Assembly: GCF_001189955.1 (NCBI RefSeq)
Contig: NZ_LFLT01000008.1
Span: 1-64,000, forward strand
Direction: 5' to 3'
DNA: 64,000 bases
DNA from: Herbaspirillum chlorophenolicum
GTDB lineage: Bacteria; Pseudomonadota; Gammaproteobacteria; Burkholderiales; Burkholderiaceae_D
The notes under the pieces are model-generated. The model saw only the letters and a list, made by a program, of their open reading frames with translations. It was not told the DNA's origin and did not search any database. A program made the position numbers and the translations under genes. This document shows positions 13,071-18,367 of the stretch, one piece after another (positions within the stretch are counted from its first letter, which is position 1; every line of letters begins with the position of its first letter).

Positions 13071-13961
13071 TCAGCGCGGCACGTCGCCTTCCACCGTGGT
13101 GCGGTACAACGTGCGGCGCAAGTGCTGGGGCGTGATGGCGGCGTAATGCTGGGTGCTGCGGTTGTCCCAGAACACCATGTCGTGCGGCTGCCAGCGATGG
13201 GTATAGACGTTCTCCGTCCGCGTGATGTGGGCATGCAGTTCCTTGAGCAGTGCGTCGCTCTCGTCGCGTGGAATGCCGACGATATGCGAAGTGAAGCCTT
13301 CGCTGACGAACAGGATCTTGCGCCCGCTTTCGGGATGCGTGGTAACCACCGGATGCTCGACCGGTGGCACTTCGTCTATCTGCTTTTGCGTCAGCTCGGC
13401 GCGCCACGGCGAGAGTTTGCGCAGACGCTCGTAGCGGTAGACGTAGGAGTGCACCGCGCGCTTTCCTTCCAGCAGCTTTTTGGTTGCGGCCGGCAGCGTA
13501 TCCCAGGCGTCGGCGGTATTGGCGTACAGCGTGTCGCCGCGCTCGGCGGGCAGTTCCTGCGAATGCAGCAGCGCACCCAGGCTGGGTTTGGGCATGTAGG
13601 AAAGATCCGAATGCCAGTCGGCGCCGGCATCGACCAGGCCGATCGGTTTGCCGTCTTCCACCACGTTGGAGACGATCAGGATTTCGGGATGGTTCTTCAG
13701 GTGGAAGCGGTTGAGCACATGCACCTGCAGCGGGCCGAAGCGGCGGCTGAATTCAATATGCTGTTCGGGCGTGATGCGCTGGTCGCGGAAGACCACCACG
13801 CCATGTTCGACGAAGGCGCTGCGGATGCGCGCCAGTTCGGCGTCGGAGACGTCGTGGTTCAGATCCAGGCCGATGATCTCGGCCCCCAACGGTCCACCGA
13901 ATGGACGAATCTCGACCTGCTGGTGCGCACGCGGCGCGCTTTCCAAAGTGGCAACTGACAT
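13071..13961 (-). CDS. TauD/TfdA-family Fe(II)/2-oxoglutarate dioxygenase
   Basis: 296 aa. The iron triad is visible as WHSDLSY (HxD) and DNRSTQHYA (distal His), with the 2-oxoglutarate-binding arginine in the C-terminal RRTLYRTTVEGD. The N-terminus has GPLGAEIIGLDL, typical for taurine and 2,4-D type dioxygenases. Substrate cannot be told from sequence; alkylsulfonates, aromatic ethers and others are possible. The start at MSVATLES has a GGAGGAG site at correct distance. No transporter or sulfur gene is adjacent. The plus-strand cupin gene starts divergently 185 bases away. Confidence 0.86.
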   Translation of the reverse strand: MSVATLESAPRAHQQVEIRPFGGPLGAEIIGLDLNHDVSDAELARIRSAFVEHGVVVFRDQRITPEQHIEFSRRFGPLQVHVLNRFHLKNHPEILIVSNVVEDGKPIGLVDAGADWHSDLSYMPKPSLGALLHSQELPAERGDTLYANTADAWDTLPAATKKLLEGKRAVHSYVYRYERLRKLSPWRAELTQKQIDEVPPVEHPVVTTHPESGRKILFVSEGFTSHIVGIPRDESDALLKELHAHITRTENVYTHRWQPHDMVFWDNRSTQHYAAITPQHLRRTLYRTTVEGDVPR

Positions 13962-14145
13962 GCCCGCTCCTCCATGATCGGCAATGGCTGCAGGCTGCGA
14001 CATGATCGCTCAGGCAGCTCCGGCAGCAAAAAACACTTATTACAACGCCTGCCGGACGAGGGGACAAGGAACAAGAACGCATATCGATATGCGTGCAGCG
14101 TTGCCGGCGACAGCCGCTGTGGCCGGCGGCGCTACAATAGCGCCG

Positions 14146-15063
14146 ATGAAACAGACCGCTTCCGACTCCTCTGCCGACGCCAGCCAGCGCCCCGCACGTC
14201 CGCTGCCGCCGCGCCCTGCGGTGGTGGCGCTGTTGCCCGAGGAGGCGGCGGCACGCAAGCAGGACAAGGAAAGGCGCGATGCGCAGGTTCGCGGCGTGGA
14301 GTCCATTGCCGCGATGCGCGCGGCCATCCGCCAGGCCAGCGCCCGTCTGCCGGTGCTGGCCGACATCCCGCGCCTGGGTCCGATGAAGACGGCGGCGTTC
14401 CGTCAGCGGGCCGCCGCTGGCCTACCCTTCATCATGACCGGCATGGCTACGAGCTGGCCGCTATCCACACTGACGGTGGCCACGCTGCGCGCCCGTTTCG
14501 GCGCACTGGCGGTACGGGCGCGCGTAGGTGACTACATCAATACCGCCTTCGCCCCGGACCGGGCCATGCAGGACATGCGGCTGCTGGACTACCTGGACCA
14601 GGTGGAGCGCGACCCCGGCGACCTGCCGCCCTACCTCGGCAACCTGGAATTGCGTGAACTCAATGCGCTGTGCCACTGGCCCAACTTCTTCGACAAGATG
14701 GGACCGCCGCGCTTCTGGATCGGCCCGGCCGGCACCGTGACGCCACTGCATTGCGACTATGACGACAATGTCTTCACGCAGATCTGGGGCAGTAAGCGCA
14801 TCTGGCTGGCGCCGCCGCATCACGATCAATATCTCTATCCACGCGAGGCCAATGCCATCCTGTTCGGCTCGCCCTTCGATCCGGACCATCCCGACCTGGA
14901 ACGCTTTCCGCTGGCGTGCCAGGCCGCGCTGGTGGACTGTGTGATGCAACCGGGCGAGATGCTGTACCTGCCGGCAGGCTGGTATCACCAGGTCAGCTCG
15001 CTGAGCTTCTCGCTGTCATGCAATCGCTGGGCGCGTGGGCGGCCGCTGGTGCTGGGGACGTGA
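14146..15063 (+). CDS. Cupin-like / JmjC-domain protein
   Basis: 305 aa. The first about 50 residues are Pro/Ala/Arg-rich and probably disordered. The rest is a cupin-8/JmjC-type domain with PLHCDYDDNVFTQIWG (HxD iron pair), LAPPHHDQYLYP, and a distal histidine in LYLPAGWYHQVSSL. Such proteins are Fe(II)/2-oxoglutarate-dependent hydroxylases, often of proteins. The start at MKQTASDSS is chosen; upstream sequence in frame lacks conservation features. It is convergent with the MocR gene, whose stop is 5 bases away. Substrate is unknown. Confidence 0.8.
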   Translation: MKQTASDSSADASQRPARPLPPRPAVVALLPEEAAARKQDKERRDAQVRGVESIAAMRAAIRQASARLPVLADIPRLGPMKTAAFRQRAAAGLPFIMTGMATSWPLSTLTVATLRARFGALAVRARVGDYINTAFAPDRAMQDMRLLDYLDQVERDPGDLPPYLGNLELRELNALCHWPNFFDKMGPPRFWIGPAGTVTPLHCDYDDNVFTQIWGSKRIWLAPPHHDQYLYPREANAILFGSPFDPDHPDLERFPLACQAALVDCVMQPGEMLYLPAGWYHQVSSLSFSLSCNRWARGRPLVLGT

Positions 15064-15068
15064 CAGTG

Positions 15069-16571
15069 CTAGCGGCGGCTGCGTAGCGATGCGCGCTGCA
15101 GCCGCGCCACCGCCCGCACCAGTTCATCGGGCGACATCGAGGCAAATCCCAGCCGCAATCCATTGATGGATTCTCCCTGCGGCGAGAACTGGCTGCCGCT
15201 GCGCACGAACAAGCCCTCGCCGATCGCCTGCCGGGCCAGGGCATCGACATCGATGTCGTCGCAGAAGGTCACCCACAGTGCCAGTCCGCCCTCGGGAACG
15301 CGGGTGGAGATGCGGTCGCCGAAGCTGCGTTGCAGGCAGTCCAGCAATACTTCCTGGCGCTGGCGATAGTGCTTGCTGCTGCGCCGGACATGACGTCGCA
15401 GTTCGCCATCGGCAATGAGCTCGGCCAGCATCTTCTGCAGGATGGCATCGCCGTGGGTGGCCAGCAGGTACTGGTTGCTCTCCAGGGTGGCAACCAGGTT
15501 CTCGGGGCCGACCACGAAGCCGCAGCGAAAGCTCGACCCCAGCAGCTTGGAGAGCGAACCGACATAGATCACATGGCGCTGCCGCGGATCGCTGGCAAGC
15601 GGCGCGTAGGGGCGCCCTGTGAAATGGTATTCGTGGTCATAGTCTTCCTCGATGATGGAAAAGCCATGCCGGGCCGCCAGGGCCAGCAGCTTTTCCCGGC
15701 GGTCGGCGCGCAGGCTCACCGTGCTGGGGAACTGGTGGTGCGGCGTGAGGTAGATGAAGCGGATGGGGCGATGCCGGCACAGGGTGTCGACCTGTTCCAC
15801 CTGGCAGCCATGGGCATCGATATCCACCACTTCCACGCGCGCGCCCAGCGCCTGGAAGATGGCCCAGGCCGGCGGATAGCTGAGTCGCTCCACCACTACC
15901 GTATCGCCCGGCCGTATCAGTGCGGCGGCCGCCAGGTGCAGGGCCATCTGCGTGCCCTGGGTCAGGCAGATGTTGGAGGGCGACACCGCCAGCGCGCGCG
16001 TGGCGCCCAGCATCGCGGCCAGGGCCACGCGCAATTGACTGGCCGACTCCAGGTTGCCATAGCGCACGCGGCCATTGCGCAAGCCCTCGCGAAGGGCACG
16101 GCGATAGTGGCGGTGCAGGATGGCTTGAGGCAGCAGGCGGTGGTCCGGCGAGCCATTGTCGAAGTACATCATGCAATGGTCCCGCATTGCACCCTGCGGC
16201 GGCAGCTCGTTGAAATACGCCGGCAGGGACAGTGCCTGCAATGGTGGCGCAAACAGGCGATCCTGCCGCCCGGCGAGCGTGTCGCTTGCATGGACCGCGC
16301 CACGATCAAAGGCGCTGCTGACAAAGGTGCCGCTGCGCTCGCGGCTGACCAGCCAGCCTTTGATGGCTGCTTCCTCATAGGCCACGATGACGGTCTTGCG
16401 GTTTACGCCCAGCATGGCGGCCATCTCGCGGGTTCCCGGCAGTGCCGTGCCGGGATGCAGGCGGCCATCGCCGATGGCGCGCGCCAGGCCGGACACGATG
16501 TCGCGGTAAGAGATGCCCGCACCGGCATTGCCCAGGTCGAGCAGCAGGCGCCAGTGTCTGATCTGGACCAT
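15069..16571 (-). CDS. MocR/PdxR-family transcriptional regulator (GntR HTH + aminotransferase domain)
   Basis: 500 aa. An N-terminal GntR winged helix (ISYRDIVSGLARAIGDGRLHPGTALPGTREMAAMLGVNRKTVIVAYEE region, residues about 20-70) is joined to a fold-type I aminotransferase domain with the PLP lysine in VGSLSKLLGSSFRCGF. MocR proteins use PLP or a PLP-bound amino acid as ligand and usually control the neighbouring divergent gene; here that is the reductase-M24 fusion, 101 bases away. This suggests, by inference, that the fusion acts on an amine, amino acid or vitamin B6-related compound. Confidence 0.9.
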   Translation of the reverse strand: MVQIRHWRLLLDLGNAGAGISYRDIVSGLARAIGDGRLHPGTALPGTREMAAMLGVNRKTVIVAYEEAAIKGWLVSRERSGTFVSSAFDRGAVHASDTLAGRQDRLFAPPLQALSLPAYFNELPPQGAMRDHCMMYFDNGSPDHRLLPQAILHRHYRRALREGLRNGRVRYGNLESASQLRVALAAMLGATRALAVSPSNICLTQGTQMALHLAAAALIRPGDTVVVERLSYPPAWAIFQALGARVEVVDIDAHGCQVEQVDTLCRHRPIRFIYLTPHHQFPSTVSLRADRREKLLALAARHGFSIIEEDYDHEYHFTGRPYAPLASDPRQRHVIYVGSLSKLLGSSFRCGFVVGPENLVATLESNQYLLATHGDAILQKMLAELIADGELRRHVRRSSKHYRQRQEVLLDCLQRSFGDRISTRVPEGGLALWVTFCDDIDVDALARQAIGEGLFVRSGSQFSPQGESINGLRLGFASMSPDELVRAVARLQRASLRSRR

Positions 16572-16672
16572 GTGAAATTCTCAAAACTGGAGGTATTGGA
16601 GGGTCCTATTCTAGCTGCACAATCCGTTCATCGGTGACAGGCCGTTGCGGCATATGGACAAGGGAGAAACGT

Positions 16673-18367
16673 ATGCAGGAGCACTACAGGATAGCGATCG
16701 CCAATGATGTGCACGGCTTTACCAGCGGTGGCGGGCTGCTGCTCGACGCGGCGCTGGAACAGGGCATCTCTCTGCCCTTTTCCTGCCGGCGCGGCGAGTG
16801 CGGATGCTGTCGCGTGCGGGTGCTGGAAGGCCGCCATCGGCGCCAGCCCTACCAGGCCTTGGGCACGCCCTATCCGCTGGGCGAGGACGAGATGCTGCTG
16901 TGCCAGAGCCATGCCTGCAGCGATATGCGCATCGAGGTCCCTGGATGGCCGCTGCCGGCGCAGGCCTTGCGCTTCGAAGCCGAGGTGCTGGAGAAGCATC
17001 CCTTGAGCGCCAGCGTGACCTGTCTGGTGCTGCGTCCTTGCGGAGGCCAACAGCCATCGGTGCGACCGGGGCAGTACCTGCGCTTCTATCTCGACGATGG
17101 CAGCAGCCGCTGCTTCTCGGTGGCCAACCTGCCCGAGCTGGAGGATGGCCGGCTTGAATTCCATATCCGGCAGGTGCGTGACGGCCATTTTTCCGGGCGC
17201 ATGCTCTCGCGCCTGCAGGCTGGCGACCGGCTGGCGCTGGAAGGCGGCTTCGGTGCCTGCACCTGGCAAGCCGCAGCAGCAGACAAAGCCCGGGAGTTGG
17301 TGTTGCTGGCCACCGGTACCGGCTATGCCGGCATCAAGCCTATCCTGCTGGCGGCACTGGCGGATGTACAAGCCGCGCCGGACCTGCGCGTGACGCTTTA
17401 CTGGGGCAATGCCGAGGCGGACGATTTCTACGATGCCGCCTTCCTGGATGCACTGGCTGCCCGTGAGCCGCGCCTGCGCTGGATCGCCGCCAACGGCGCT
17501 TCGGGTGAACAGGTGCAGGAGCTGGCTGCTGCCGGTGGCCATCAGTGGCCCTCTACCCAACTGGTCGCCTGTGGCAATCCGGCAATGATCGCCGCGCTGC
17601 ATGAGGCTTGCACGCATTGGGGCGTGTCGCCTCAACAGCTGGTGACCGAGGCCTTCGTCCCATCCGGCGCCAGCGTGGCGCCGATGGCGCTGGGCAGCCT
17701 GGACCCGGTATTCGAGCGGGTGGGGCCGCGCTATGCGCTGGAAGGCATGCTCACCGCGCGTGCCCAATCCATCCGCGCCGTGGCGCAGATCGCCGGCAAG
17801 CTCAGGGTCGGCATGTCTACCGCCGAGGCAGTGGAAATGGCAGACCGGCACCTGCACGACATGGGGGCGTCACACACCTGGCATCCGACCTACATCCGCT
17901 TCGGCGACGACACGGTGCGCACGCCGCGCCAGGGCGTGCAGCGCGATCGCACCCTGCGCGAGAGCGACATCGTGGTGGTCGACATCGGCCCGGTCTGGGA
18001 CGGTTGCGAAGGTGACTTCGGGGACACCTTCGTCTTCGGCAACGAAGCCTTGCACCGTGCCTGCGCCCAGGCCGCGCGCGACGTTTTCGATGCCACCCGG
18101 GCTGCATGGGAAACCGGGCTGAGCGGTCGCCAGCTGTACGACTTTGCACAGGCCGAGGCCTTGCGCGGTGGCTGGCAGCTGGAACGCAACCTGGCCGGAC
18201 ATCGCGTCTCCGATTTCCCGCATGCGCTGTTCGGCCCGGCCAAGCTGGCCGAGATGGATATCACTCCGAGCCATGCGCTGTGGGTGCTGGAGATCCAGCT
18301 GCGTCATCCCAGCTATCCGGTGGGAGCCTTCTACGAAGACCTCCTGATCGGCTTGCCGGGGCAGTAG
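16673..18367 (+). CDS. Fusion protein: 2Fe-2S/FAD/NAD reductase joined to an M24 metallopeptidase domain
   Basis: 564 aa in one uninterrupted frame. Residues 1-90 are a plant-type ferredoxin (C38, C43, C46, C77; CX4CX2CX30C). About 93-195 is an FAD-binding reductase domain (RCFSVANLPE) and about 198-325 the NAD-binding domain (LLATGTGYAGIKPIL, LVACGNPAMI), as in oxygenase reductase components. Residues about 335-560 are an M24 (creatinase/methionine-aminopeptidase fold) domain with all five candidate metal ligands: D437 (VVDIGP), D448 (GDFGDTFV), H510 (AGHRVSDFPH), E540 (LEIQLRH) and E555 (FYEDLL). AAGGGAGAA precedes the ATG. Divergent MocR regulator upstream, terminator downstream. Domain identities are sure; the combined function is not known to me. 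Confidence 0.88.
   Translation: MQEHYRIAIANDVHGFTSGGGLLLDAALEQGISLPFSCRRGECGCCRVRVLEGRHRRQPYQALGTPYPLGEDEMLLCQSHACSDMRIEVPGWPLPAQALRFEAEVLEKHPLSASVTCLVLRPCGGQQPSVRPGQYLRFYLDDGSSRCFSVANLPELEDGRLEFHIRQVRDGHFSGRMLSRLQAGDRLALEGGFGACTWQAAAADKARELVLLATGTGYAGIKPILLAALADVQAAPDLRVTLYWGNAEADDFYDAAFLDALAAREPRLRWIAANGASGEQVQELAAAGGHQWPSTQLVACGNPAMIAALHEACTHWGVSPQQLVTEAFVPSGASVAPMALGSLDPVFERVGPRYALEGMLTARAQSIRAVAQIAGKLRVGMSTAEAVEMADRHLHDMGASHTWHPTYIRFGDDTVRTPRQGVQRDRTLRESDIVVVDIGPVWDGCEGDFGDTFVFGNEALHRACAQAARDVFDATRAAWETGLSGRQLYDFAQAEALRGGWQLERNLAGHRVSDFPHALFGPAKLAEMDITPSHALWVLEIQLRHPSYPVGAFYEDLLIGLPGQ

Follow-up and report, generated by a model that had tools for sequence, protein, structure and literature searches.

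The window analysed here, a stretch of 64,000 nucleotides from Herbaspirillum chlorophenolicum, carries on its forward strand (16673-18367) a single open frame that translates, with no internal stops, into a protein of 564 amino acids in which a [2Fe-2S]-FAD-NAD reductase is followed by an M24 domain. Four Pfam domains, each scoring above its cut-off, are arranged in this protein in the order Fer2, FAD_binding_6, NAD_binding_1, and Peptidase_M24, all on the forward strand. The plant-type [2Fe-2S] (Fer2) domain (residues 20-81, 16730-16915; 46.4 bits, cut-off 21) contains the cluster cysteines C38, C43, C46, and C77, the FAD_binding_6 domain (residues 103-197, 16979-17263; 31.3 bits, cut-off 21.1) contains RCFSVAN, and the NAD_binding_1 domain (residues 211-309, 17303-17599; 33.9 bits, cut-off 22) contains ATGTGYAG, which means that the Fer2 cysteines, the flavin RxFS motif, and the NAD GTG motif are all present. 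A short junction (about residues 332-345, 17666-17707), whose limits were drawn from the Pfam borders and the start points of stand-alone M24 homologues, leads into the M24, or pita-bread, domain (about residues 346-564, 17708-18364; Pfam and stand-alone homologues). The Peptidase_M24 profile itself covers residues 358-512 at 65.2 bits against a cut-off of 23, making the domain a member of the Pfam M24 family. The initial annotation had reported one polypeptide without stops joining the reductase to M24, and its coordinates, frame, and residues are all correct. Moreover, an alignment of 17 fusions shows no variation in the cysteines, the flavin and NAD motifs, or the M24 ligands; the invariant reductase residues include the four cysteines, R146, F148, S149, G215, T216, and G217. 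RxFSxA occurs in 37/37 complete fusions, and a GACTW-type signature was also seen. The suggested structure prediction of the domain interface was run with three alignment rows as input, but it gave a pLDDT of 40 for the whole fusion and of 56 for M24 alone, and neither model provided usable geometry or a cluster-to-metal distance.

Divergently from the fusion gene, a MocR regulator of 500 amino acids is encoded on the reverse strand (15069-16571), identified by Pfam and NCBIfam, in which the GntR winged helix-turn-helix (PF00392, 48.5 bits) and the aminotransferase I/II-like domain (PF00155, 92.1 bits) are both present. With 311.4 bits it stays below the cut-off of 320 of the NCBIfam PdxR equivalog, and it scores 192.8 bits with the EhuR model, for which the cut-off is 480. 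The divergent MocR gene had been pointed out in the window, and its link with the fusion is conserved, since a divergent adjacent MocR gene is found in 36/36 other complete fusion loci. The MocR proteins of 35 of these 36 loci are 56-100% identical to that of locus L090 of the distant genus g444, while genome G002 (locus L048) has a different MocR that is 28% identical to the L090 protein. Alignment of the intergenic regions of 33 of the 37 complete fusion loci, the other four being removed by a length or identity filter, revealed a conserved, putative operator/promoter region at 16563-16613, which contains the blocks CTGGACCAT (16563-16571, overlapping the MocR start), CTGGAGGT (16587-16594), and GGnCCTA (16602-16608). 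The same three blocks are common to the fusion loci of Herbaspirillum, g28, and g444.

Beyond the MocR gene lie a cupin_8 gene (13984-15063) and, three genes from the fusion, a gene for a TauD-type dioxygenase (13071-14003). This pair was considered as partners of the fusion and rejected, as its occurrence in the fusion loci of Herbaspirillum and g28 is confined to the window, L037, L038, and L040, and these divergent genes probably have nothing to do with the fusion. Aside from MocR, neighbouring gene clusters are shared by at most 6 of the 15 other Herbaspirillum/g28 loci and at most 9 of the 22 g444 loci, where neighbours were identified by Pfam for part of the genes around the fusions. With no constant neighbour besides MocR, the surroundings reveal no obvious alternative electron acceptor. 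In 8 of the 22 g444 loci, a gene for a conserved protein of 605 amino acids is convergent with the fusion and directly adjoins its end, in many cases with more conserved genes after it (e.g., L090:8678-12433).

The reductase-M24 fusion was found in 38 genomes, the window counted, comprising 13 of its own genus, 3 of another genus, g28, 21 of the genus g444, and genome G1321. Within Herbaspirillum, 13/34 genomes carry it, including the window's own and one (G004) in which the gene is truncated at a contig end, and the other 12 proteins are 48-93% identical; a contig scan also detected proteins 93% and 73% identical to the fusion in two named Herbaspirillum records. The most distant fusion of the genus, at 48% identity, is that of G002 (L048:8285-11588). 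In a sample of 392 genomes of the family, a match at E 1e-40 was present in 48, namely the 13 Herbaspirillum and the 3 g28 genomes with the fusion and 32 genomes in which the match was to M24 alone, and in g444, which belongs to the same class and another order, the fusion is present in 21/149 genomes. Farther out the M24 family is sparse at E 1e-30, with matches in 13/300 genomes of the order, 1/369 of the class (the window's own genome), and 14/398 of the phylum. A plasmid search returned 168 records with a match, none of which reached 80% query coverage; a gene on a Burkholderia stagnalis plasmid carries the label 'M24 family metallopeptidase'. Two seemingly long M24 frames, in G001 (L056) and G1564 (L168), were rejected as fusions, because the added stretch runs antisense to a regulator or is out of frame with the reductase.

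Comparison with the nearest relative (L037, 93% identical) gave dN/dS values of 0.15 for Fer2, 0.14 for FAD-NAD, and 0.07 for M24, and comparison with five farther fusions, the farthest of which are near synonymous saturation, gave 0.28-0.43 for the reductase parts and 0.15-0.32 for M24. In 5/6 comparisons, the one with L090 being the exception, dN/dS was lower for M24 than for either of the other two domains.

The fusion has an unfused counterpart in other lineages, in which reductase and M24 are encoded by two genes of one strand, the reductase first, and a MocR gene is divergent from the reductase gene. This arrangement was found at 18 loci, in families f27 and f5 and in the g444 genome G1478. 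As fused and unfused forms both occur, the refuting possibility that all homologues are separate genes is false. The split loci were picked from the best-scoring M24 matches in f27 and f5 and do not represent a random sample; the lower-scoring M24 genes examined were solo (f27 genomes G578, G637, and G505 and a second copy in G1578; a second copy in the f5 genome G1598). A divergent adjacent MocR gene is present in 16/18 split loci, the exceptions being L165, in which the contig ends, and L173, in which MocR lies 1.5 kb off. These regulators form a second set, 39-45% identical to the L090 MocR, and the one of the split locus in G488 passes the PdxR equivalog with 359.8 bits. Odd intergenic gaps, either negative or very long, reflect over-long starts from the simple gene caller or the broken frame of L167. 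In the latter locus (G1555, L167:3435-5219), the frame of the split-pair reductase is broken and part of it reads into M24, which indicates a damaged copy or a sequence error. G1478 carries both a fusion (L144:4455-6134) and a split pair (L174:4275-6097), each with its own MocR. In a single case, G301, the split kind of reductase is itself fused in frame to M24; this gene (L062:6415-8484) has the order FAD-NAD-Fer2-M24 with putidaredoxin-type cysteine spacing and is flanked by hemC on one side and a short-chain dehydrogenase gene on the other; no MocR gene was found in the surrounding stretch examined.

Fused and split reductases differ in their ferredoxin domains. In the fused kind this domain is N-terminal, with CxxxxCxxC in 37/37 complete fusions, and the plant-type domain of the window finds its best PDB matches in chloroplast ferredoxins. 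In the split kind it is C-terminal, with CxxxxxCxxC in 18/18 (17 split loci and G301, the broken L167 excluded), and that of G488 matches putidaredoxin-type PDB ferredoxins at 3.2e-15 to about 1e-12. Despite this difference, the FAD/NAD cores of both kinds group together in a single clade, apart from 22 other reductases, with a support of 99/94 in a tree that omits L173 (long branch) and L202 (too short), and with L173 included and 14 background rows the support is 95/96. The background was drawn from searches with P0001, the fusion profile, and the G488 reductase, and may miss a closer outsider. The motif GxCxW is present in 37/37 fused and 16/18 split reductases and in 0/22 background reductases. 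Raw scores would favour an independent recruitment of two unrelated reductases, as the G488 reductase scores 101-121 bits with fused reductases and up to 169 bits with unrelated ones; this was rejected on the basis of the core tree and the GxCxW motif, which give one lineage. It is thus by tree and motif, and not by raw similarity, that the two reductase kinds are united. A single core clade with different ferredoxin types at opposite ends implies that this M24 retained a flavin-to-[2Fe-2S] chain at its side through an exchange of the carrier, and, as judged from these comparisons, the one-electron carrier is replaced and not lost between fused and split reductases.

The five metal ligands proposed for the M24 domain (D437, D448, H510, E540, and E555) are indeed present, and together with H517 they are invariant in 91 aligned M24 sequences, fused and unfused, from which the short matches L108 and L109 had been removed beforehand. 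Further invariant residues in this alignment are W403, H404, R409, G411, T414, E446, R511, F515, P516, and W537. The earlier description of the domain as an 'intact' M24 peptidase did not hold, however, as its family lacks a conserved equivalent of the histidine of canonical M24 enzymes, the catalytic residue His79 of E. coli MetAP. The MetAP1 sequence 'vich' of the His79 region aligns in an insertion relative to the profile of this family, position 418 is mostly occupied by P, F, or M in the 91 sequences, and any histidine at 412-430 occurs in just 7 of them, at scattered places. Likewise, the domain scores 30 bits with TIGR00500 (type I methionyl aminopeptidase), far from the equivalog cut-off of 171.35. 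The best PDB match of the M24 profile is MetAP1 (1.6e-7), Foldseek with the weak M24 model (pLDDT 56) also placed MetAP first (E 6e-4, TM about 0.4), and among the 51 PDB matches at E 0.01 no chain is named creatinase, DddP, or DoeA, as far as names tell. The M24 domain of the window therefore appears to represent a separate M24 subfamily and is unlikely to be an ordinary peptidase.

The M24 tree contains four clades, consisting of the fused (A), the split (B), and two groups of solo (C1 and C2) domains. The split clade B lies nearer to C1 than to the fused clade A, and a single M24 clade of fused and split forms was rejected (A and B together, p-AU 0.014), which implies that the reductase was lost in C1 or was passed between M24 lineages. 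Solo domains, having no paired reductase, make up 35 of the 91 sequences and have the same active-site residues; for one of these, L169, there is a split pair at a distance of 7 kb. A search of 23 solo-M24 genomes detected neither a split-kind reductase (best score 176 bits, versus 191-344 for the split kind and 805 for the query itself) nor a fused-kind one (best score 124.5 bits, versus 444 and 316 for the controls G025 and G1299). A GlxA-type regulator, i.e., DJ-1_PfpI combined with AraC, as confirmed by Pfam in one case, adjoins 20/21 C1 genes, 18 of these divergently, and 0/14 C2 genes. Stand-alone M24 relatives are found at L052-L067 (e.g., L053:7378-9269), L092, L093, L175, L176, and L178, and many of the genomes concerned also carry the fusion. 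A gene for GGACT (AIG2-like gamma-glutamyl cyclotransferase), identified by Pfam in two of nine cases, lies directly beside M24 on the same strand in 9 of 92 loci, four solo and five split (L096:8651-9022, L099:7385-7747, L103:7354-7707, L104:8478-8819, L159:5119-5490, L160:5287-5748, L161:4967-5299, L162:4935-5282, and L168:4010-4342), which hints at gamma-glutamyl amides as possible substrates.

The reductase part shares its Fer2-FAD-NAD order and its motifs with the oxygenase reductases BenC, MmoC, and TmoF, with 5ogx, 7c3a, and 1krh as best PDB matches, and the NCBIfam scores of 119.7 bits for MmoC (cut-off 500) and 104.9 bits for BenC (cut-off 430) leave it outside both equivalogs. Reductases of the BenC/MmoC type normally feed terminal oxygenases, which are separate partners; unlike them, the window protein adds a C-terminal M24 domain, and among the neighbours identified no oxygenase gene recurs beside it. 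With MetAP, aminopeptidase P, and prolidase the window shares the Pfam M24 family, the five metal ligands, and the second histidine (H517), whereas its family differs from them in having no conserved His79 equivalent, in its own invariant residues around WH, RFG, EGD, and GHRxxDFPH, and in its fusion to, or pairing with, a reductase in part of its members. The functions known for M24 enzymes are those of hydrolases and, in the case of DddP, of a lyase that is not known to use a reductase. The ectoine hydrolase DoeA/EutD is likewise an M24 enzyme not known to work with a reductase, under control of the MocR-type EnuR/EhuR; it has the combination of M24 and a MocR-type regulator in common with the window, which adds the reductase. 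The GlxA-linked stand-alone M24 'metallopeptidases' are near relatives of the window M24 domain (38-48% identical, same active-site residues), but they have no linked reductase and form a clade separate from the fused M24. For the DMSP lyase DddP, a dinuclear iron site in an M24 fold is documented (PMC4108388), a non-peptidase use of such a site with iron, the likeness to the window being one of description.

The fusion, its partners, the ligands, the absence of a conserved His79, the regulator, and the intergenic blocks are established by comparison of sequences, and the partnership of reductase and M24, fused or adjacent, points to a redox enzyme rather than an ordinary peptidase. The best explanation, held tentatively and at slightly less than even probability, is a self-sufficient redox metalloenzyme that would pass electrons to the M24 metal site for O2 activation on an amino compound. 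What we infer in this proposal is that electrons enter the M24 site, that iron and O2 take part, which class the substrate belongs to, and what MocR responds to; the reaction would proceed as follows. NAD(P)H would reduce the FAD of the reductase part, from which electrons would move singly via the N-terminal [2Fe-2S] cluster, and the cluster would hand them on to the C-terminal M24 domain with its dinuclear metal site. This site would most likely contain iron and spend the electrons on O2 activation, after which it might attack an amino compound in a reaction of the monooxygenase or oxidative N-dealkylase type, and not of peptide hydrolysis. The chain from NADH via FAD and [2Fe-2S] to the M24 metal is the simplest reading given the BenC/MmoC kind of reductase, the absence of another constant acceptor adjacent to it, and the iron precedent of DddP, and the MocR link makes an amino-compound substrate probable. 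MocR may sense this amino compound or its PLP adduct and control the fusion gene from the shared operator. In its more specific form, somewhat less probable but still plausible, the proposal describes a new class of M24-fold non-heme oxygenases, with an aminopeptidase-derived di-iron or Mn/Fe O2-activating centre fed by the fused NADH-FAD-[2Fe-2S] chain. The initial annotation had imagined an electron-coupled C-N bond cleavage; the idea of coupling is strengthened by the unfused reductase-M24 pairs and by the two ferredoxin types on one reductase lineage of the tree. A creatinase-like C-N hydrolysis is not supported.

The solo M24 relatives, which have the same conserved residues without a linked reductase, imply that electrons may not be essential to the chemistry of the family. 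They thereby agree with an explanation that is unlikely, but deserves serious consideration, in which M24 is a hydrolase or lyase that needs ferrous iron, and the reductase re-activates oxidised metal in support of a reaction that is itself non-redox. DddP, an iron-binding lyase of the M24 fold (PMC4108388), would be a precedent, and the GGACT gene beside nine M24 genes fits hydrolytic amide chemistry. Nevertheless, the permanent, stoichiometric linkage in 38 genomes and the existence of two ferredoxin types hint at a role beyond occasional repair, and the lack of a conserved His79 equivalent counts against ordinary peptidase chemistry, although not against other hydrolysis.

Rather improbable is a bifunctional enzyme with two distinct activities on consecutive intermediates, in which the reductase would have free flavin, a ferric chelate, or a separate oxygenase as its target and M24 would catalyse the preceding or the following step. 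Oxygenase reductases usually do serve a separate oxygenase, and flavin-reductase families are among the NCBIfam matches, but among the locus neighbours no cluster besides MocR recurs in most loci (at most 6/15 and 9/22). It is very improbable that M24 has lost its catalytic activity and serves the reductase as a scaffold or sensor for binding a substrate or partner; the canonical His79 is without a conserved equivalent and non-peptidase M24 folds such as Arx1 exist, but the five ligands and His517 are invariant in 91 sequences, and in all but one of the six comparisons dN/dS is lower for M24 than for Fer2 or FAD-NAD. Finally, an assembly or sequencing artefact joining neighbouring genes, which the unfused reductase-M24 neighbours of other families might have suggested, is refuted and retains practically no probability, since the search for co-linear homologues returned the same in-frame join in 38 genomes, G005, G016, and G031 among them being single contigs, and all 37 complete fusion frames are open to their end.

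A literature search of titles and abstract openings, which covered few subscription journals, gave no M24-reductase fusion or pairing and no pita-bread oxygenase among the matches listed, and the main text of a survey of MocR regulons (PMC5320631) contains no word beginning with 'peptidase'. There is a fair chance that the chemistry of the reductase-M24 enzyme is new. With its own electron chain, fused or unfused and with two ferredoxin types, the system makes a redox role of the M24 fold directly testable. The annotation 'M24 family metallopeptidase' may mislead on the function of these proteins, and if the proposed role is true, the family would represent a new scaffold among dinuclear oxygenases and a route from a peptidase site to a redox site.
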